A stretch of DNA of 48,226 nucleotides from Synergistaceae bacterium (GTDB taxonomy: Bacteria; Synergistota; Synergistia; Synergistales; Aminobacteriaceae). Location of the stretch: assembly GCA_031272145.1 (NCBI GenBank), contig JAISUL010000059.1, forward strand, positions 1 to 48,226, given 5' to 3'. This document shows positions 1,632 through 28,814 of this stretch, one piece after another. The translations under genes were made by a program, and so were the position numbers. The stretch's first letter is position 1. Every line of letters starts with the position of its first letter. The notes under the pieces were generated by a model that saw nothing but the letters and a program-made list of their open reading frames with translations, ran no database searches and was not told the origin of the DNA.

Positions 1632-1729
1632 GCCGAATCACCCCCTAGGTCTATCCATGCCCCCGCGGGCGTGGAAGCCCCCCGTGGGCATGGGGGGGAA
1701 ATTATCGCACGATATGGTCGGGTTGGGGG

Positions 1730-1758
1730 TTGCATTTTTGGAGGAGGTGGTGTATGAT
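1730..1758 (+). promoter_or_regulatory. Sigma70-type promoter for opposing RNA 1
   Basis: TTGCAT (1730-1735), 17-nt spacer, TATGAT (1753-1758). In copy 2 both hexamers and the 17-nt length are kept although spacer bases differ. The start point should be near 1765. No plus-strand coding sequence follows. Confidence 0.75.
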
Positions 1759-1764
1759 GATGCC

Positions 1765-1922
1765 GCCCCGGAGAAGTAGAGGGCGGCGTAGTACGGACTG
1801 CCCGATGAGGGTCTAGCTAACCCCCATCAGGACTTACGTCCGCGATGAAGGTTGATCACATGAATAGCCGGATCAGTTCGGCGATGGCGAGCGCTAGTTT
1901 TAGGAAGGCTAGCGCTCGTTTT
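1765..1922 (+). ncRNA. Candidate antisense RNA 1 of a type I toxin-antitoxin pair
   Basis: Predicted RNA of about 158 nt from the promoter at 1730-1758 to the terminator at 1888-1922. The 5' end can fold GCCGCCC/GGGCGGC (1762-1768 with 1781-1787). Next comes a stem CGGAC/GTCCG (1794-1798 with 1838-1842) enclosing GATGAGGG/CCCCCATC. The last 67 nt are complementary to the 3' two thirds of the 29-aa peptide gene on the other strand. This convergent overlap is the arrangement of type I antitoxins such as RatA and SR4. The inner hairpin has an A/C mismatch on this strand but a G-U pair on the other, so that element may function in the peptide mRNA instead. The role is inferred. Confidence 0.55.
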
Positions 1923-1945
1923 GCAAACGTCGCAAGTTTCTTCAT
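1856..1945 (-). CDS. Hydrophobic/basic micropeptide 1 (29 aa), candidate type I toxin
   Basis: ATG at 1945, stop TGA at 1856-1858. The peptide begins MKKLATFAKRALAF and ends AELIRLFM, with a Leu/Ala-rich middle: a basic N-terminus and one amphipathic or transmembrane helix. It aligns over its whole length with the 31-aa peptide of copy 2 (shared pattern MKK, AK.AL, LAL, AELIRL), with substitutions conservative at protein level. A strong SD (GGGGGTGAG) precedes the ATG but can be buried in a hairpin, and a consensus promoter sits at 2039-2067. Size, charge pattern, long structured leader and opposing RNA match type I toxins such as Ldr, TxpA or TisB families; it is not homologous to any I recognise. 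Toxicity is an inference. Confidence 0.6.
   Translation of the reverse strand: MKKLATFAKRALAFLKLALAIAELIRLFM
1888..1922 (+). terminator. Terminator of opposing RNA 1, inside the peptide gene
   Basis: CGAGCGCTAG (1888-1897) and CTAGCGCTCG (1909-1918), a perfect 10-bp stem with an 11-nt loop, followed by TTTT (1919-1922). Copy 2 has a different but again perfectly paired stem at the same place, so pairing is kept while sequence changes. It lies within codons of the minus-strand peptide gene. Confidence 0.75.
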
Positions 1946-1947
1946 GC

Positions 1948-1969
1948 TCTCACCCCCTTTCGGGGGGCC
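1948..1969 (-). promoter_or_regulatory. Hairpin burying the ribosome-binding site of micropeptide 1
   Basis: On the minus strand CCCCC-GAAA-GGGGG, a GNRA-type tetraloop hairpin, includes the SD GGGGGTGAG just before the ATG at 1945. Sequestered ribosome sites are typical of type I toxin mRNAs. The copy 2 leader keeps the same hairpin. Confidence 0.6.
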
Positions 1970-2038
1970 TTGCCCCCGGGTCAGTCTCACCCCTCACCCA
2001 TATGGCATATAGGATCGGGGCGCCTCTCCGTGAGGAGA

Positions 2039-2067
2039 AGTATAGCACGTTTGGAGGGGGAGGTCAA
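2039..2067 (-). promoter_or_regulatory. Promoter of micropeptide 1 mRNA
   Basis: Minus strand TTGACC (2062-2067), 17-nt spacer, TATACT (2039-2044). The predicted start near 2032 gives a leader of about 87 nt that begins with a CTCC/GGAG hairpin. It lies just outside the duplicated block, and no equally good promoter exists at the corresponding place in copy 2. Confidence 0.75.
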
Positions 2068-2226
2068 GCTGTCCGCGAGGGTACGATGAGGGGGGGGCCT
2101 CGCGCGCCATGGCGTCGTCCCATGCCCATGCCCGGCCATGTGCCCTTGCTCTCGCCTCGGCCCGGTCTACCCGGACGGGCGCGCGAACATCGGGGTGGAT
2201 TTATCGCAGATGGTCGAGTTTGGGGG

Positions 2227-2255
2227 TTGCATTTTTGGAGGGGCTGATGTATGAT
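2227..2255 (+). promoter_or_regulatory. Sigma70-type promoter for opposing RNA 2
   Basis: TTGCAT (2227-2232), 17-nt spacer, TATGAT (2250-2255); start point predicted near 2262. Confidence 0.75.
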
Positions 2256-2261
2256 GATGCC

Positions 2262-2422
2262 GCCCCGGAGAAGTAGAGGGCGGCGAAGAAAACGGACTGC
2301 CCGATGAGGGTTGGTCGCCCTCATCAGGACTTGCGTCCGTCATGAAGGACTAAAACATTTTGACGAGCCGAATCAGTTCGGCCAGGACTAGCGCTAACCT
2401 AAGAAGGGTTAGCGCTAGTTTT
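2262..2422 (+). ncRNA. Candidate antisense RNA 2
   Basis: About 160 nt from the promoter at 2227-2255 to the terminator at 2387-2422. It has the same fold as RNA 1: 5' stem GCCGCCC/GGGCGGC (2259-2265 with 2278-2284), outer stem CGGAC/GTCCG (2293-2297 with 2335-2339) and inner stem GATGAGGG/CCCTCATC (2303-2310 with 2318-2325), perfect here. The 3' 73 nt are complementary to the 3' part of the 31-aa peptide gene. Sequence identity to RNA 1 is high in the stem region, so cross-regulation between copies is possible. The function is inferred from layout only. Confidence 0.55.
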
Positions 2423-2445
2423 GCAAGCTTCGCAAATTTTTTCAT
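2350..2445 (-). CDS. Hydrophobic/basic micropeptide 2 (31 aa), candidate type I toxin
   Basis: ATG at 2445, stop TAG at 2350-2352. The peptide begins MKKFAKLAKLALTLL and ends AELIRLVKMF: Lys-rich N-terminus, Leu/Ala helix, basic tail. It is the paralogue of micropeptide 1. The SD GGGGGTGAG precedes the ATG and can pair with the upstream C-run in a GAAA-loop hairpin. The frame stays open upstream to 2598, but that extension reads through the leader and the conserved hairpin and is not matched in copy 1, so I take the ATG at 2445. No strong minus-strand promoter is seen upstream, so this copy may be weakly expressed or silent. Confidence 0.55.
   Translation of the reverse strand: MKKFAKLAKLALTLLRLALVLAELIRLVKMF
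2387..2422 (+). terminator. Terminator of opposing RNA 2, inside the peptide gene
   Basis: ACTAGCGCTAACC (2387-2399) pairs with GGTTAGCGCTAGT (2407-2419), followed by T to 2422. It has a longer stem than copy 1, with different arm sequence but preserved complementarity. Confidence 0.75.
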
Positions 2446-2447
2446 GC

Positions 2448-2472
2448 TCTCACCCCCTTTCGGGGGGGGGGG
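2448..2472 (-). promoter_or_regulatory. Poly-C/poly-G hairpin over the ribosome-binding site of micropeptide 2
   Basis: On the minus strand an 11-C run (2462-2472), GAAA loop and GGGGG of the SD. The long homopolymer offers several pairing registers and is a likely slippage site. Confidence 0.5.
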
Positions 2473-2599
2473 CGTTGTCCCCGGGTCAGTCTCACTCCTC
2501 ACCATGGAACCTGTAGGATAGGGGCGCCTCTTCTGGTTCGATAGCGGCACGCCGAACCTTTTCCGCGCTTCATCATGAAGTACATGAATGACAGGCATC

Positions 2600-2719
2600 T
2601 CACGGCGGAGCGGTTTAGGAGTATGAGGGCATGACTTACGGCAAGTGGCTTTATAGATCCGCTGCTGCTACGGTACGCTGCCTCGTCTAAGCCGCCGTGA
2701 TCGTAAGGGTGACTCCTAA
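2600..2719 (-). other. Overlapping inverted repeats after the chaperone module
   Basis: Three pairs of complementary segments: TTAGGAGT (2615-2622) with ACTCCTAA (2712-2719, crossing the stop codon of the upstream gene), TTACG (2636-2640) with CGTAA (2702-2706), and TCACGGCGG (2600-2608) with CCGCCGTGA (2692-2700). The first two nest; the third crosses them, so the RNA could form a pseudoknot or switch between folds. There is no T-run, so it is not a simple terminator. No coding sequence was recognised here. Confidence 0.4.
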
Positions 2720-3762
2720 TATATAGATGCTGTTTTGTTTATGATTTCATCAAGCGTCTCCAAGTCCTTGGCGAGCCCTTCGGCGTCTGGGAACAGTTCG
2801 TGCAGCGACCCAAGGAGCATCCTCGACAAGAAGGCGTTCCTATATCTGTTGCACATGTCTACACCAATAGATCGCACAAGCCTGAATATCTGCGAATCCA
2901 TAGTGTAGTCCCTGCCAGCCGCCTTAGCGTGAAGCTCTATAGGTCGGGCTACGTACTTCCAGTTCCTTACGACGCGAAAAAGTTCGTTGATATGCGGTAT
3001 GATGTCGTTATTGGATTGTTTCCATTTTGCTTTATTCTGTATTTGCTCTGCAATCTTTATGGCGTATTTCATCTCCCTGTCAAAAAACGTCTGCGCCTTT
3101 GCCTCGTAGAGATCCACCAGGTCGGAGATAACGTAGGGGCAAATGTCCGTTCCGTCGTTCGTGGCGGACTTCACAATCGACGTCAATGCCGCGACCAGCT
3201 CCTCCGTCGGGAGGGTGTCGAGTGCCGACTTGATCGTGTCGAGATAATAACGACGACGTTCGCGAATCTCCGACTCCACGGCTGACAGGTCTGGCACTTC
3301 GGGAAATTCCGCCTCTGCTCTGTCGTCGTTGATGACATATGCAATATCCTCGGCATCGATCTCATCAAAGGCTACCGCTAAGTCGCGTATCGAACGCGAC
3401 AGTTCTTCTGGCGATGCGTAACACGCGTGCCTGATTTCAGCGGCAAAAACGTTAGCCTGCGCGATAGGCGTCATGTTGGAATCCAAATAGAGCGCGTAAC
3501 TGCCTGTGAAGCGTCTGCCGTTGATGCCTGACGTTTTGTCGAACCACGACGCCAGAGCCGCCGCACGCCCAGGGTCGACGCCAGGCAGCCACGACATTTC
3601 CGCTGCTAGGCGCTTGCGCGGGTTCGTCAAAACAGAACGGGCTTCCGCGCATTCATCAGGGTCACGAGAGAGAGCGGCTTCTTCGGCGAGCTCCATGATC
3701 CTTCGGCGGTCATCGTGAGGCGTGGCCCCCAGAATCCTAAAAGGGTTATCCAAAATATCCAT
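2716..3762 (-). CDS. J-domain-like protein without HPD (chaperone module)
   Basis: 348 aa. The N-terminal 60 or so residues have the frame of a J domain: NPFRILGATPHDD, helix, then A...VLTNPRKRLAAEMSW, the place of the usual AYEVLSDPEKRA. The HPD signature that stimulates Hsp70 is absent; a DPD lies nearby in SRDPDECAEAR. The remaining 280 residues are helical, charged and unrecognised. It is the last gene of the module, 26 bp after the AAA+ gene, so a role as an adaptor between client, AAA+ protein and the Hsp70 at 5266-7788 is inferred. Similar NPF(R)xLG proteins occur beside non-canonical Hsp70 genes in other bacteria, as I recall. It could be a J-like scaffold rather than an ATPase stimulator. 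Confidence 0.75.
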   Translation of the reverse strand: MDILDNPFRILGATPHDDRRRIMELAEEAALSRDPDECAEARSVLTNPRKRLAAEMSWLPGVDPGRAAALASWFDKTSGINGRRFTGSYALYLDSNMTPIAQANVFAAEIRHACYASPEELSRSIRDLAVAFDEIDAEDIAYVINDDRAEAEFPEVPDLSAVESEIRERRRYYLDTIKSALDTLPTEELVAALTSIVKSATNDGTDICPYVISDLVDLYEAKAQTFFDREMKYAIKIAEQIQNKAKWKQSNNDIIPHINELFRVVRNWKYVARPIELHAKAAGRDYTMDSQIFRLVRSIGVDMCNRYRNAFLSRMLLGSLHELFPDAEGLAKDLETLDEIINKTASIY

Positions 3763-3788
3763 GGTGTCCTCCCAGTGCGGCGAGCTCC

Positions 3789-5261
3789 TTAAAAGCCGAC
3801 GGGACGCTTTTTCTTTTCGTCGGGTATATTTTTCATAGCAGCCTCAACGCTGCCCATATCTACGCTCGACTTTCCGGCGCGCGCTGCAAGTCTCGCGGCC
3901 TCCCTCGCGAAAAACGCCGCGTCGGAGAGCGCTCTGCCTGTCAAAACGTCTGTGGCTACGCTTAAGTCAAAATCTTCATCTTTAGGCACTCCGTCAAAAA
4001 GCGCACTCAGCAGCGACGTTACCTCCTCTCTAGACGGCATCTCTACCTCGACAACATGGTCGAATCGCCCGCGGCGCAGCACTGCAGGGTCAATGGCATC
4101 GATCATGTTGGTCATTCCGATCACGAGAACGCCGTTATTACTGGCTTCCGGTATGCGTCGAAGGAACTCCGCTACCTCCTCCACGTGGTACTGCCCCGCC
4201 TTGTCTCCTCTGTTAGACAAAAACGATTCCATCTCATCGATAATCAAAACGGACGGCGCGTCATTCAATGCCATATCGAAAACCTTCGAGATTTTTCTGG
4301 CTGTGTCGTGGATATACGGACTGCCGACTGTGCTCGAGTCTATCGAGTACTCCGACCAGCCCAGAAACTCTACGAGCTGCCGGACGGCAAAGGTCTTGCC
4401 GCAGCCTGGCGGCCCGTAAAGCACTATAGCGGACGGGAAACCGATCCCAAGCGCTTTGTACTTTTCCGCGTTGAGCACGATGTCCACAACGTGCTCGTTG
4501 AAAAAACCTTCCAGCTTCGAGCGTCCCGGAAGCCTAAAAACCTTTTGCCTTGAAGGGCGATCGGAGGCCGCGGTTTCGGGAAGAACGGCGGCCTGCGTTT
4601 CGGCGGTGGCGGCTTTGCGCTTGATAAACGCCTCGGCTTCCGCTGGAACTTGCAGGCCCGCCGCCTCTATTATCTCCACCAGATCGGATACTGGTATAAA
4701 TCCTGCCAAACGCGCCAGCTTCTCAAAGGAGTTTATCGATACTGCCACGCCGCCTGTAAGGTACATCCCAAGTATCACGCCGTCATAGACCGGCGGCCTA
4801 TTCAATGGCGTCAACGACGGCAGCAGCCGTGAAAACCGCTCGACGTAAACGGCGTCGTGAAAAGAAGCTAGGGGCGCGATCCTACGCGACTCTCGAAGCG
4901 CAACTGCAAAAGCCAAGGCGTCCGCTTTGTCGCGAGGCGCCAGCGGCTCACGCTGATCCGCGACCGGCGAAAGGACGTAATTTTTCCGGCTGAACAGCAA
5001 CCGAAACGACGGAGCAGGCAAAGCCCCACTGCACGCAAGATCGCGGAAAACAGCCTCGTCTATAAGACCGGCCTCGTTCCACTCCCGTGCCATGTCCGGT
5101 AAAACGACCAAAACTGAGCCAGCGCCGTTAGTGTCAAAAATCCGCCACCTTTCCCCAGCGTACAGGAGAGAGCGGATTTTTAGACCGGCGGAGCGCGGGG
5201 TGAATTCCCACTCGTCGGGCAGTTCGTGATCCTTTGTTGGCCATGCGTCGTTCGGAATCAA
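3789..5261 (-). CDS. AAA+ ATPase of the chaperone module
   Basis: About 490 aa. The classical AAA core is in the second half: Walker A GPPGCGKT near residue 280, Walker B VLIIDEME near 337, and the second region of homology with TNMIDAIDPAVLRRGRFD near 390 including the arginine finger, as in spastin/FtsH/Cdc48-type AAA domains. The first 260 residues are a variable domain I do not recognise, possibly substrate-recruiting. I chose TTG at 5261 because AGGGGG stands 7 nt before it; the open frame extends to 5321 but would overlap the Hsp70 gene by 56 bp. The Hsp70 stop lies in this ribosome site, suggesting translational coupling. The likely role is ATP-driven remodelling or disaggregation, comparable in principle to ClpB working with DnaK. 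Confidence 0.8.
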   Translation of the reverse strand: MIPNDAWPTKDHELPDEWEFTPRSAGLKIRSLLYAGERWRIFDTNGAGSVLVVLPDMAREWNEAGLIDEAVFRDLACSGALPAPSFRLLFSRKNYVLSPVADQREPLAPRDKADALAFAVALRESRRIAPLASFHDAVYVERFSRLLPSLTPLNRPPVYDGVILGMYLTGGVAVSINSFEKLARLAGFIPVSDLVEIIEAAGLQVPAEAEAFIKRKAATAETQAAVLPETAASDRPSRQKVFRLPGRSKLEGFFNEHVVDIVLNAEKYKALGIGFPSAIVLYGPPGCGKTFAVRQLVEFLGWSEYSIDSSTVGSPYIHDTARKISKVFDMALNDAPSVLIIDEMESFLSNRGDKAGQYHVEEVAEFLRRIPEASNNGVLVIGMTNMIDAIDPAVLRRGRFDHVVEVEMPSREEVTSLLSALFDGVPKDEDFDLSVATDVLTGRALSDAAFFAREAARLAARAGKSSVDMGSVEAAMKNIPDEKKKRPVGF

Positions 5262-5265
5262 GGTT

Positions 5266-7788
5266 CTACCCCCTGATGATGTTGATCGCTTCGCGCATCT
5301 CGCCTTCGTCAATTGGCGCAATACGTATGGCGAAAAGCTGCCCGATTATCGACCGCAACTCGTCTATGTCGCCTGACCGCATGCACTGCGCGCCCAACTG
5401 GGCAAGCTCGTTGAAGCGCGCCTTGTTCGTGTACATGGCCGACGAGCGGATCAGATACTTGAACTGCGACACGGCAAACCAGTCCTGACGGGCCAGTATC
5501 TCAAAGCTCTTCTTCTTGAGGGCGTCAAGGTGGTCATCGAAATCCCCGTCGTTTCTGTCGATGGAGCGCTGGGCTGCTTTTGTCAGGCGCTCGATCGACG
5601 ACGTCTCCGACGGACGCGCATGCTCGCGAAGGTGGCTGTCGAAAAATCCAACGGCGTCGTCAAGCTCCACCTGCCGGATTTCCTTTCGGTGCGCTTCGCC
5701 AACGCGGGCCAAAAGTTTCCTAGCCGCCTGTATCTCGTCGTTGGCCTTCTGCCTGTCCTCGGTAGTGGACTCGTCATCAAGCGACATGGCCATGTTCAGC
5801 TTTTGCCGCGCCTTCTCCAAATCCGGGTCGTCAACGACTTCGCTCAATTTATCCAGGCGGTGCATGAGAACCTCCGCCTCGTCAGCGATCACCTGCGACA
5901 TGCTCTCGTCGCTGTAATCGATCGCTGCACCCTCTCCCTTTCCATCGTAAAAGTTTCTGCTGGAATGGAACGTCTCGCCTATGCTCGGCACTGATACCGC
6001 GACGTGAATGTCGCCGCCATCACGGAAGTCGAACTCGCACTCCATTTCGGCGCCAGCCGCGATTACGCCGTCATCGAAGTCAGAGCCGGAGACATTGAAG
6101 ACGCCAATGAAGCGGTTGTCGTGCACGGGGTTCTCGATCTCGCCCTGCCACAGCCTGAACTTCAGCGAGTCGGCGCTGCCGGCCTTAATCGTCTCTCCGG
6201 CGACGACTGTAACCGTTACTTTCTTGGGAAGCGAATCTCCATCACGAAGCAAATGCTGAAGTACCGGACGTCCGCCTAGTTTTTCGAGCACCTCCAGCGC
6301 AACCGGGTGCGACGCCGGAATCGCGTCGATAGTGGCAGCGGTTCTGGTTATAACGATCCTGTCCGCGCTGAACACTATGGGCGCGCCGAATGAATCGAAC
6401 ACCAAAACCTTGAAAGTGTTGTCGCCCATCTTGCTGAGACTCAGCGTGACGACTGTCCCGTTTGCGAGCGGAAGCCGCCCGGACGACCAGCCAGTGTCGA
6501 AACTGTCAATTTGGAACTCGAACCCCGCTGTGTCTTGGCCAGCCAGTTTCGCCGTGACTTTCGCTTTGTCGTTAGGGGTTCGAGCAATGTAGTCGAAGGA
6601 TATGGACAGTTTATCAAGTGAAACCCGTCCCTTGGCGCTTTTGCGCGTCCGGCTTTCGGCGCTCCAGTCTATGGCCTCGGCGAACACGCAGGCACCCTCG
6701 GCTACAGCCGTCATAGGGTTGACGTCCAAGCCTCCCTCCAGACCGAGCTCAAACAGTACCCTATCCCGCAGCGGCTTGTAGTTCGTAGGCCCTCCGACGA
6801 AAACGAGACGCCTGATGTCGTTCGGCGTCATACCTGCCTTCCCGATGGTCTCGCGCGCGGCGTCGATGGACTCGGAGACCTTGTCGGCTATGAGCTTGTC
6901 GTATACGGCGCGGGTCAGCGGCACTTCCAGATAAATGTCGTTGCCAGCCAAATCTCGTACCCTCGTCTCCGCCTCCGATAGGACAATGGTCACATCTTCC
7001 CGCGTTGAGAGCTCGATCTTCGCGCGTTCGGTGGCCCATACCGCTACGCTGGCAAGCGTCTTGAAGGCGGGGTTGACTCTCACGTCGTCGGGCAAGCTGA
7101 AGTTCTCCTTGAGCCATGGGAACACCACGCTGTCAACCAAAGCGCGGTCGAAATCGCGTCCGCCGCACATGGCTACACCCCCGTGAGCCAAGAGGTTCAC
7201 GTGTCCTCCTATGTTTTCGGCTATGGCTGCGTCGAACGTGCCGCCGCCCATGTCGTATATAAGGAATACGCCGTCGGCACCGCGCTCGGGTAGTTTACTC
7301 CACGCTCGCACAACGGCCATAACCGCCGCGACTGGCTCCTGCATCAGCGCAACCTTGCCTATGCCGGCCATCTCCGCAGCCTGGATCGTGGCGTCCTTTT
7401 GCATCTGGTTGAACGCCGCCGGAACTGTGATGACAGTGCCGGTTTCCGGAGCGTTTCTGATCTCCTCCGGCAGGTAGCCGAACAAAGCCTTCAGCACCTC
7501 TGCCGAGCACTCTTCCGGCGTCTTCGTGAGGTTCACGGCGGGCATTTTCATCGGCGTGCCGGTTCCCATAAAGCGCTTGAACAGCATGGCCGAGTTGTCC
7601 GGATAGAACGGCGCCATATCGTACGCGCGTTTGCCGACGTATTTGCCGCCGCGCTTGTCCCAGTAAATGGCCGAGGGAGTGACGTCGTTCTGCTCCGGGC
7701 TTTTCCAGACGCGCGGCTCTGACGCGCCGTCGTAAGACGATATGGCGCTGTTCGTTGTTCCGAGGTCTATGCCTATGAAGTGTTTCAT
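5266..7788 (-). CDS. Non-canonical Hsp70 (DnaK-like) chaperone, 840 aa
   Basis: The ATPase domain covers residues 1 to about 385: phosphate-1 GIDLGTTNSA (6-15), phosphate-2 YDMGGGTFDAA and adenosine motif VFVGGPTNYKPLRDRV. Unlike DnaK (about 640 aa) it has an extra beta-rich stretch of about 110 residues (near 395-505) before a segment resembling the substrate-binding beta domain (LRDGDSLPKKVTVTV ... LWQGE ... DNRFIGVFNVSG), followed by a long charged helical lid. There is no EEVD- or DnaK-type tail. The start codon overlaps the stop of the GrpE-like gene (ATGA). With J-like, GrpE-like and AAA+ neighbours it is probably a specialised foldase rather than the housekeeping DnaK. Confidence 0.9.
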   Translation of the reverse strand: MKHFIGIDLGTTNSAISSYDGASEPRVWKSPEQNDVTPSAIYWDKRGGKYVGKRAYDMAPFYPDNSAMLFKRFMGTGTPMKMPAVNLTKTPEECSAEVLKALFGYLPEEIRNAPETGTVITVPAAFNQMQKDATIQAAEMAGIGKVALMQEPVAAVMAVVRAWSKLPERGADGVFLIYDMGGGTFDAAIAENIGGHVNLLAHGGVAMCGGRDFDRALVDSVVFPWLKENFSLPDDVRVNPAFKTLASVAVWATERAKIELSTREDVTIVLSEAETRVRDLAGNDIYLEVPLTRAVYDKLIADKVSESIDAARETIGKAGMTPNDIRRLVFVGGPTNYKPLRDRVLFELGLEGGLDVNPMTAVAEGACVFAEAIDWSAESRTRKSAKGRVSLDKLSISFDYIARTPNDKAKVTAKLAGQDTAGFEFQIDSFDTGWSSGRLPLANGTVVTLSLSKMGDNTFKVLVFDSFGAPIVFSADRIVITRTAATIDAIPASHPVALEVLEKLGGRPVLQHLLRDGDSLPKKVTVTVVAGETIKAGSADSLKFRLWQGEIENPVHDNRFIGVFNVSGSDFDDGVIAAGAEMECEFDFRDGGDIHVAVSVPSIGETFHSSRNFYDGKGEGAAIDYSDESMSQVIADEAEVLMHRLDKLSEVVDDPDLEKARQKLNMAMSLDDESTTEDRQKANDEIQAARKLLARVGEAHRKEIRQVELDDAVGFFDSHLREHARPSETSSIERLTKAAQRSIDRNDGDFDDHLDALKKKSFEILARQDWFAVSQFKYLIRSSAMYTNKARFNELAQLGAQCMRSGDIDELRSIIGQLFAIRIAPIDEGEMREAINIIRG

Positions 7789-26817: not shown

Positions 26818-26873
26818 AGATTTCGTGATGGCTGTGCCGTCGCGTGCACCACATTTTCACGGAGGTGAAAAGC

Positions 26874-28814
26874 ATGATTTCTACTAAGACGGCTTTTGAC
26901 GCAGGGCCGCAAGGGCATGTACAGCATGGCGCATGCCGTGACTATGGTGCTGTGCTCTTTTTACTTTTAATTTTCTTTTTCTTTGCTTTTCCTCTGGCCG
27001 CCTCGGCTGAGGAGTACGCCGAGGGCGAGGTGCTGGTTTTGCTGCGAGGCGAGGCCGGCATAAGCGGTGCCGCTACGGGTGCCTCTCTTTCTTCCGCCGC
27101 GGTGATGACCGCCTGCGCTGAGAACGTCGCCATGGCCGCCGGGTCTAAGGCCGCCGCGGTATACACCTCTCTGTCCGCCGCGTCCGGCGGCAAGGAGGTC
27201 TTTGCGCTCCTGAAGTCCGACTCCAAGACCACCAAGGAGATAATCGACGAGCTGAGCGCGAACCCCGACGTGATCGCCGTCTCCCCGAACTACATCAAGC
27301 ACTCAGCCGTCTGGCCTAACGACCCGCGGTGCAGCGAGCTCTGGGGCATGACCGCGATCAAAGCCCCTGAGGCTTGGGACATCACGACCGGCTCCGAGAC
27401 CGAGTACATCGCCGTGGCAGACAGCGGCATCGACGCGACCCATCCCGACCTCGCGGCCAACATAGACCTCGATCTGAGCCGCAACTGCATCAAGGACGCT
27501 AGCGACACGTCCTTGACCGATAACGTCGGCCACGGCACTCACGTCAGCGGCACCATCGCCGCAGTCGGCAACAACGGCCTGGGAGTCGCCGGCGTGAACT
27601 GGCGGACGAAGCTGATAGTGCTGAAGACCATGGAGAAGAGCGGCAATGGCGCAATAGGCCGCAACTCGGACTTCGCTAGCGCGATCAACTACCTGATAGA
27701 GCTGATCGGCCAGGGCAAGCGCATCTCGGCGCTCAACCTGTCGATCAGCGGCTTCGAGCCCGGGGCGCCGGAAAAACACACAACAAACGACGTTCTTTGG
27801 AGGGCGTTCAAGAAGCTGAGCGACATGAACACGACGGTCATCGTCGTGGCGGCGGGCAACGATAAGGTGGAGGTCGGCATGCCGGTGCAGGTAGACGACG
27901 ACGATCCCCAGTACGCCTATCCCGCTTCGTACGTCGACATCAGCAACATGGTCGTGGTCGGGGCGCTGGATGGAAGCAGCGCCGCGTCGTACTCGAACTA
28001 CAGCGCTACACTGGTCGACGTAGCCGCCCCCGGGTCGCGCATATTGAGCACCATACCCGGCGGCGGGTACGACATTATGTATGGGACGTCGATGGCCACT
28101 CCCCACGTCGCCGGAGTAATCGGCCTGATGGCATCCGTTGCGCCGGGTGCAACGGCGTCCGAGCTCAAGTTCGTCCTGCTGGACAACACCGACTACAAAA
28201 CCAACCCGATCCACGGGAGCGGCAACAAGAAGCTGTCCTGCTACGGGCTGATCGACGCGGCGGCGGCGGTCGATGCCGCCGTGGCCGAGCTTGGGGAGTC
28301 TACGCCTCCGTCGTTCGACAAATACACTGTGTCCACGCAGCTGGACACATACAACGCTCCTCCGGTCACGAGCACCGTGACGATCCCCATCGACTGGCGC
28401 GACAAAGAACGCCTGCCAGACGGAAAGTGGTTCTACTACTGGTTCATACCGTCCGGCGCGAGCAGCGCGGAGTTCCGTTACGCCGCAGCCGCATCCAGGG
28501 GTTACGGCCCCTACGAAGCTCAGCTTGAAGACGGCGCGATAGAGGTCGACGTGAGCAAGCACGCAGCTGTTAAGGCAGGCGAGTACCGGATACTCTTTTA
28601 CGACGCCACGCAGGAGTACGTCGGCACCACGGATCCCATGGCCATCGATCCTGCCACTAACCCCGACGATGGCGGCTACGCCCCCCCCAGCGGTGGGGGC
28701 AGCAGCTCTAACAGCTGGTGGGAGAGGTGGGGCTGCGACTCCGGAGTTTTCTCTATCGCTACCGTCGCGGCTCTGGCTCTGGGGTGTTTACTTCTCGCCG
28801 CCCGGCGGCGCTGA
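26874..28814 (+). CDS. Secreted subtilisin-like (S8) serine protease with Synergist-CTERM tail
   Basis: 646 aa from ATG 26874 (SD GGAGGTGA). Signal peptide with hydrophobic core LFLLLIFFFFAFPLAASA (about 28-46), an inhibitor-like propeptide to about residue 150, then the S8 domain with Asp183 (ADSGIDATHPDL), His220 (GHGTHVSG), oxyanion Asn in AAGND and Ser406 (GTSMATPH). Next comes a beta-rich region and a Gly/Ser linker ending in SSNSWWERWGCDSG, a hydrophobic segment and RRR. That end matches the Synergist-CTERM protein-sorting pattern (GC near a membrane helix, Arg tail). It is the only plus-strand gene for 26 kb and overlaps the next gene tail to tail. Confidence 0.93.
   Translation: MISTKTAFDAGPQGHVQHGACRDYGAVLFLLLIFFFFAFPLAASAEEYAEGEVLVLLRGEAGISGAATGASLSSAAVMTACAENVAMAAGSKAAAVYTSLSAASGGKEVFALLKSDSKTTKEIIDELSANPDVIAVSPNYIKHSAVWPNDPRCSELWGMTAIKAPEAWDITTGSETEYIAVADSGIDATHPDLAANIDLDLSRNCIKDASDTSLTDNVGHGTHVSGTIAAVGNNGLGVAGVNWRTKLIVLKTMEKSGNGAIGRNSDFASAINYLIELIGQGKRISALNLSISGFEPGAPEKHTTNDVLWRAFKKLSDMNTTVIVVAAGNDKVEVGMPVQVDDDDPQYAYPASYVDISNMVVVGALDGSSAASYSNYSATLVDVAAPGSRILSTIPGGGYDIMYGTSMATPHVAGVIGLMASVAPGATASELKFVLLDNTDYKTNPIHGSGNKKLSCYGLIDAAAAVDAAVAELGESTPPSFDKYTVSTQLDTYNAPPVTSTVTIPIDWRDKERLPDGKWFYYWFIPSGASSAEFRYAAAASRGYGPYEAQLEDGAIEVDVSKHAAVKAGEYRILFYDATQEYVGTTDPMAIDPATNPDDGGYAPPSGGGSSSNSWWERWGCDSGVFSIATVAALALGCLLLAARRR

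Follow-up and report, generated by a model that had tools for sequence, protein, structure and literature searches.

Several described toxin-antitoxin loci keep a toxin mRNA silent through its own folding as well as through an antisense RNA. The aapA/IsoA loci of Helicobacter (Campylobacterota) are chromosomal and multicopy, and each encodes a peptide of ∼30 amino acids (aa), an antisense RNA on the opposite strand, and an mRNA whose 5′ and 3′ ends interact. The full-length mRNA is inert through this long-distance interaction, which is removed by 3′ trimming; for aapA3, translation is limited to the truncated form, and pairing with the antisense gives an inert duplex (PMC6733600). The same paper cites hok mRNA as likewise inert by 5′-3′ fold-back and activated by 3′ trimming (PMC6733600). 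Here we analyze a locus that is present as two tandem copies in a 48,226-nucleotide (nt) stretch of DNA (contig JAISUL010000059.1 of assembly GCA_031272145.1, referred to below as the window) from a Synergistaceae bacterium. In each copy, a minus-strand gene for a short peptide is opposed by a predicted plus-strand RNA. We consider it likely that this locus represents a new type I toxin-antitoxin-like family, one that combines mRNA control of the hok/AapA kind with a 3′ antisense of the TxpA/BsrG kind.

The convergent toxin and antitoxin RNAs of the TxpA/RatA and BsrG/SR4 systems of Bacillus subtilis overlap at their 3′ sides. A preliminary description of the window had named these systems as analogues in layout, and rightly so: judged from promoter and terminator positions, the predicted Synergistota transcripts are also convergent and overlap at the 3′ side. 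The likeness is one of layout only; by profile the peptides are not similar, and the Synergistota locus has its antisense terminator within the coding sequence and shows support for a 5′-3′ fold-back of its mRNA. The RatA-txpA duplex is cut by RNase III (PMC6563280). With hok/Sok (R1 plasmid and enterobacterial chromosomes), the locus would share the 5′-3′ fold-back of the mRNA, but it has no visible mok-like overlapping frame and no Hok profile match, its antisense lies at the 3′ side rather than over the leader, and it belongs to a different phylum. It resembles aapA/IsoA in its multicopy chromosomal loci, the size of its peptide, the antisense on the opposite strand, and the predicted 5′-3′ interaction that would hold the full-length mRNA inert, but differs in how the Shine-Dalgarno sequence is hidden: the aapA 3′ end masks it and IsoA covers that region, whereas the Synergistota locus uses a local leader hairpin, its mRNA 5′ end would pair with the loop of the 3′ hairpin, and its antisense spans the 3′ untranslated region (UTR) and the 3′ half of the gene.

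TisB of Escherichia coli, an amphiphilic cationic helix, forms pores (PMC8309996). The Synergistota peptides resemble it as amphiphilic cationic helices of 27 to 30 aa with the charges on a polar strip and show sub-threshold similarity to its profiles; IstR-1 is transcribed from a different place and targets a standby site, whereas the antisense described here lies on the opposite strand. Before msoT1/msoA1 of the cyanobacterium Microcystis was reported in 2025, type I systems were known only from Proteobacteria, Firmicutes, and Tenericutes, a restriction thought to be search bias (PMC12390103). Like msoT1/msoA1, the Synergistota locus is type I-like and comes from a phylum with no earlier examples, and we found nothing on type I systems in Synergistota in the open literature. 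Unlike msoT1/msoA1, which is from another phylum and was tested in the wet lab, the Synergistota family is widespread and is supported by sequence comparison.

By profile, Rfam, and Shine-Dalgarno/antisense-position tests, the locus belongs to no known family. The window peptides match nothing in Pfam; a search of 30 family members against Pfam and NCBIfam gave no match above cutoff, including those to Hok, Fst/Ldr, Ibs, and other profiled type I toxins; and PADLOC returned nothing above cutoff. Rfam contains no family for the region or the RNA at either gathering or permissive thresholds.

The locus recurs at well over 100 places in Synergistota, and a DNA search turned up more copies, both in the genome that the window comes from and in other genera. 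R1, a covariance model built on the opposing RNA alone and blind to the peptide, matched 36 of 83 genomes of the taxonomic family and 40 of 188 in the phylum, with up to 12 matches per genome, many of them arranged as tandem arrays. The same set of parts is found in 12 of the 20 genera of the taxonomic family, which places the locus beyond chance. A peptide-only profile taken from an alignment of the family peptides (A5) matched 50 of the 83 genomes, at up to 13 places in one genome. A pattern consisting of the ribosome-binding site and start occurred at 17 places in 9 of the 83 genomes (its reversed control, at none); in a collection of named genomes, its family-type matches were confined to Synergistota (Synergistaceae, Synergistales, and Fretibacterium fastidiosum). 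Matches of this pattern in Nitrospirae, Planctomycetota, Lentzea, Oscillibacter, Geobacillus, and Alicyclobacillus were, where translated, ordinary starts. Tandem arrays and many paralogues are also found in known type I families.

The two copies in F. fastidiosum (L006 and L013) have leaders and 3′ cores that are 100% identical, while the middle of their peptide genes, where the antisense terminator lies, is only 53% identical; this looks like conversion of the ends around a variable core. Between paralogues, divergence peaked in the coding core for some pairs (in G006 and G011), but not clearly on average.

The peptide gene and the opposing RNA occur together. At 62 or more of the 89 R1 matches examined, the stop codon of a family peptide adjoins the RNA core; conversely, R2, a broader model of the opposing RNA, detected it in 18 of 20 fetched peptide regions that R1 had missed (18 of 19 testable regions, because L190 ends with its contig). 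The promoter that the preliminary description placed opposite the peptide gene is also kept: a −10 box matching at least five of six positions is present in 83 of 88 loci (24 in shuffles), and 60 loci have in addition a −35 box matching at least three of six (16 in shuffles). Homologues with both the peptide and the opposing promoter, whose absence the preliminary description had named as refuting it, do exist. A terminator-like hairpin scoring ≥13 follows within 150 nt in 72 of the 88 loci, compared with 4 of 88 after shuffling. On the peptide strand, −10 boxes were recognized at the same place in 76 nonidentical loci, and in 66 of 84 loci the 3′ hairpin is followed by at least four T residues in 8 nt, as expected for the end of an mRNA.

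Our main new result is that comparison of these loci points to a 5′-3′ fold-back of the mRNA, as in hok and aapA. In nearly all loci, a 5′ repeat (mostly GGAGAGG) begins 6 to 9 nt after the mRNA −10 box, i.e., at the very 5′ end of the predicted transcript. These first ∼7 nt repeat the loop sequence of the 5′ hairpin in the opposing RNA and are hence the complement of the 3′ hairpin loop in the mRNA itself. For window copy 1, CGGAGAGG (2023-2030) can form eight pairs, one of them G·U, with CUUCUCCG (the complement of 1769-1776). Matched variants of the 7-mer include GGACAGG, GGGUAGG with GGAUAGG, GGCGAGG, GGCAAGGU, GGCAGGG, GGGGAGA, GGGAAGC, GGGGAUUU, and others, giving at least nine pairing sequences. 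We compared the observed pairing score with scores obtained after loops and 5′ ends were redealt among loci, a permutation that ignores shared descent: 21 unique loci with nonconsensus loops scored 134, versus 102 ± 4.7 when permuted (0 of 20,000 permutations), and 51 distinct loops from an extended set that was parsed automatically scored 299.5, versus 232 ± 7.7 (0 of 5,000). We also considered whether the mRNA 5′ end might pair with the leader and thereby open the ribosome-binding site, but found no covariation between them and, if anything, avoidance; the covariation of the 5′ end is thus specific to the 3′ loop.

The structures at the 3′ side appear to be conserved as RNA. All seven pairs of the 3′ hairpin helix show changes on both sides, as do 18 of 18 pairs of the core structure, in which 89.8% of cells are paired, compared with 77.6% when shuffled and at most 53% when slid, in an alignment that was itself fitted to the structure. 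Wobble-type deviations place G·U on the mRNA strand in 122 cells and on the opposing RNA in 42, in a model built on the opposing strand; this bias argues that conservation of the 3′ structure serves the mRNA no less than the opposing RNA, and hence favors an mRNA extending to the 3′ hairpin. Amid these freely covarying helices, an internal loop in the 3′ UTR, CGUAAGU/GCAG, is almost invariant and may be a protein or tertiary-contact site. A hammerhead-like CUGAUGA string in the 3′ UTR was not conserved, and we rejected it on sequence.

The ribosome-binding site, GAAAGGAGGUGA, which we take to match the 16S tail along its entire length (an exact tail search in the window's genome found none), appears to be buried in the leader. 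Across 53 loci with a mapped −10 box, the median probability that the Shine-Dalgarno sequence is unpaired was 0.005, compared with a mean of 0.42 when flanks were shuffled, and was lower than with shuffled flanks in 52 of 53. Its pairing partner switches along with it: CCCCC accompanies GGGGG, and CAUCUCCU accompanies AGGAGGUG. The Shine-Dalgarno sequence is therefore paired inside the leader, and is not masked by the 3′ end.

Family peptides are 26 to 38 aa long (60 distinct sequences), mostly cationic, and on average amphipathic (mean hydrophobic-moment z, 1.8), with the A5 consensus MExIxKLVxALxxLxRAxAELIRLxK. The ratio of nonsynonymous to synonymous changes (pN/pS) is 0.52 in the peptide frame, compared with 0.77 and 1.28 in the other two frames, and changes fall mostly at third positions, which places the frame under constraint at the protein level. 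The peptide probably inserts in the producing cell's own membrane. Three loci of genus g16 (L109, L119, and L138) combine the same RNA frame with another peptide of greater hydrophobicity, MKDFLD..IELLQ.IS.SATVLE..LRVIR..; judging from these sequences, the subfamily has retained the RNA control and exchanged the peptide.

These features suggest the following mechanism. The minus-strand gene would yield an mRNA of ∼270 nt for a short amphipathic cationic peptide, and this mRNA would be inert: a local hairpin would sequester its very strong ribosome-binding site, and its first ∼7 nt would pair with the loop of the 3′ terminal hairpin, closing the full-length molecule end to end. Translation presumably needs prior 3′ trimming or refolding, as for aapA3. 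The convergent RNA of ∼160 nt, complementary throughout to the 3′ half of the mRNA, would start pairing by loop-loop contact with the mRNA 3′ loop and then remove the mRNA as a duplex through an RNase III-like activity, as RatA does with txpA mRNA. The peptide, if made, would depolarize the membrane, like TisB. The antisense and the mRNA 5′ end display a common 7-nt sequence and would therefore compete for the mRNA 3′ loop. This raises the possibility, which we put forward tentatively and hold to be somewhat short of probable, that the shared sequence is a form of mimicry: an mRNA closed at its ends would be both untranslatable and hidden from the antisense, and only an opened mRNA would be visible to either, while paralogues that drift to different 7-nt addresses would keep a dozen pairs per cell partly insulated from one another.

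The doubt that remains concerns toxicity and not the locus. The peptide might be a regulated small membrane or secreted peptide (phenol-soluble modulin [PSM]-like, signaling, or antibacterial) that is harmless to its own cell, with the antisense and the fold-back keeping its level low or timed; we think this unlikely. In favor of a toxin, the nearest named profiles, all below cutoff, are those of the type I toxins TisB (the closest) and DinQ-like as well as PSM-alpha, none of which were matched by 10 shuffled control peptides. Scores against the TisB profiles (TIGR04459 and NF011340) were 13.6 to 18.7 bits, the best being 18.7 (E = 0.0013) against a cutoff of 53, and 17.2 against a cutoff of 38. 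In favor of a harmless peptide, the resemblances to PSM-alpha and to a TisB-like helix are about equally weak, and multiple copies with diversified peptides would fit. However, the stacking of controls (buried ribosome-binding site, end closure, and antisense) is typical of lethal type I toxins, and the opposing RNA is kept beside broken peptide genes. In about 15 loci, the RNA core is retained and the peptide gene is broken by a frameshift, a stop, or loss of the start or ribosome-binding site (for example, L135:1215, L135:912, L115, L127, L126:2692, L091, L089, L100, L116, and L142), the direction expected if only the peptide is harmful.

It is quite improbable, in our judgment, that the inverted 7-nt repeats are DNA operators for a repressor rather than RNA pairing partners, which would make the fold-back illusory. 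Inverted repeats are a common form of operator, and both repeats have the same position relative to their −10 boxes. Against this, different repeats coexist in one genome, each matched only in its own locus (GGAGAGG and GGACAGG in G003; GGAGAGG, GGGUAGG, and GGGGAGA in G004), and one repressor would not explain them. In addition, the repeat on the opposing side always lies in a hairpin loop whose stem covaries, and residual mismatches in the 5′ helix of the curated set favor G·U on the mRNA over the reverse class by 11 to 3.

We give still less credence to a MITE-like miniature transposable element bounded by the 7-nt repeats as its terminal inverted repeats, with an incidental peptide and RNA. 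The dispersed multicopy repeats, the tandem arrays, and matches at contig ends would suit such an element, but the −10 boxes are conserved outside both repeats and at a fixed distance, and the reading frame is constrained as protein. Plasmid and phage records held no match to the locus, and four pattern matches in viral contigs were all unrelated to it. Least credible of all seems attenuation of a downstream gene through a leader peptide: a short open reading frame (ORF) is indeed followed by structured RNA and a terminator-like hairpin, but the context is variable with no shared downstream gene seen, the loci form tandem arrays and have a convergent promoter, there is no run of regulatory codons, and Rfam gives only a sub-threshold chance match to a leader.

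A type I toxin-antitoxin-like family, which the preliminary description had proposed, thus holds up as the best reading, with the peptide as its candidate toxin. Several observations weigh against it. The antisense ends within the gene, downstream of the start codon, and leaves the Shine-Dalgarno region uncovered, so a direct translational block is not obvious. The G·U asymmetry of the 5′ helix falls to 17 versus 11 when the noisier extended set is used and is hence weak, and shared descent among loci could enter the permutation results. Loci with broken peptide genes were found via the opposing RNA, which biases their ratio. L179 has an intact peptide gene with no leader and no opposing RNA detectable in the R2 search. 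L003 (contig C14), a third copy in the window's own genome, retains its promoter, its leader, and a 31-aa peptide in intact form, but its 3′ side is degenerate and no opposing RNA was detectable there; this may be either a dead copy or one that is controlled in trans. Finally, no mRNA promoter is visible for window copy 2.

If this reading is correct, type I-like systems occur in Synergistota, where about half of the genomes sampled from one taxonomic family carry them. More than 100 natural variants with at least nine pairing sequences make it directly testable how mRNA end closure, antisense access, and paralogue insulation are connected. The family also provides a signature for scanning other phyla: a short ORF, a buried ribosome-binding site, and matching 7-mers after two convergent −10 boxes.

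In the window, the two tandem copies occupy positions 1702 to 2545, with aligned blocks that are 82 to 94% identical and spaced 497 to 500 bp apart (Table 1). The tandem copies, minus-strand genes for peptides of 29 to 31 aa, plus-strand promoters, and intrinsic terminators inside the peptide genes are all present as the preliminary description had stated; the copy 1 mRNA promoter, the ribosome-binding-site hairpin, the complementarity of 5′ end and 3′ loop, and the lack of a recognizable mRNA promoter in copy 2 were not part of it. Both peptide ORFs have the start context CCCCGAAAGGGGGTGAGAGC-ATG. The complement of the copy 1 mRNA 3′ hairpin is the 5′ hairpin of the antisense RNA, whose entire length is complementary to the 3′ portion of the peptide mRNA. 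In copy 2, no mRNA −10 box is recognizable at the expected distance, where TATCGA (2538-2543) is found instead; its peptide gene may therefore be silent, and the sequence suggests that copy 2 is possibly a decayed, antisense-only copy.

Table 1. Predicted features of the two tandem copies in the window
Feature	Position	Strand	Sequence or remark
Peptide gene, copy 1 (candidate toxin)	1856-1945	−	29 aa, MKKLATFAKRALAFLKLALAIAELIRLFM
Peptide gene, copy 2	2350-2445	−	31 aa, MKKFAKLAKLALTLLRLALVLAELIRLVKMF
mRNA −35 box, copy 1	2062-2067	−	TTGACC, read from sequence; 17-bp spacer to TATACT
mRNA −10 box, copy 1	2039-2044	−	TATACT; expected mRNA start ∼2032
mRNA 5′-end repeat, copy 1	2023-2030	−	CGGAGAGG; 8 nt after −10 box; pairs with own 3′ hairpin loop, 1769-1776, scored as 7.5 of 8 pairs
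Ribosome-binding-site hairpin, copy 1	1951-1967	−	GGGGGTG in CCCCC-GAAA-GGGGG
mRNA 3′ hairpin, copy 1	1762-1787	−	Loop CUUCUCCG, acceptor for mRNA 5′ end; presumed transcript end
Structured 3′ UTR domain, copy 1	1793-1845	−	Long hairpin with conserved internal loop CGUAAGU/GCAG; covariation
Opposing-RNA promoter, copy 1	1730-1758	+	TTGCAT-17-TATGAT
Opposing (antisense) RNA, copy 1	1765-1922	+	∼158 nt, predicted; R1 match, 1760-1845
Antisense terminator, copy 1	1888-1922	+	CGAGCGCTAG ... CTAGCGCTCG + TTTT; inside peptide gene
Ribosome-binding-site hairpin, copy 2	2451-2470	−	Same as copy 1; just upstream of peptide gene
Degenerate 5′ repeat, copy 2	2527-2534	−	AGAAGAGG
Opposing-RNA promoter, copy 2	2227-2255	+	TTGCAT-17-TATGAT
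Opposing RNA, copy 2	2262-2424	+	Predicted; 5′ hairpin, 2259-2284; terminator arms, 2387-2399/2407-2419; R1 match, 2257-2344

Adjoining the locus on the minus strand (2716-7788) is possibly a chaperone-like cluster: its genes encode a 348-aa protein that Pfam does not match, an AAA ATPase (PF00004), and a protein of 840 aa that carries an Hsp70 domain (PF00012) at its N terminus. On the other side, a plus-strand gene (48-1352) that is followed by a strong terminator encodes a 434-aa protein with no Pfam match, which reads like an outer-membrane porin. Farther along the window, a plus-strand gene for a subtilase-family protease of 656 aa (26844-28814; PF00082) lies amid minus-strand housekeeping genes (TruB, IF-2, NusA, FtsW/RodA, and a penicillin-binding protein).

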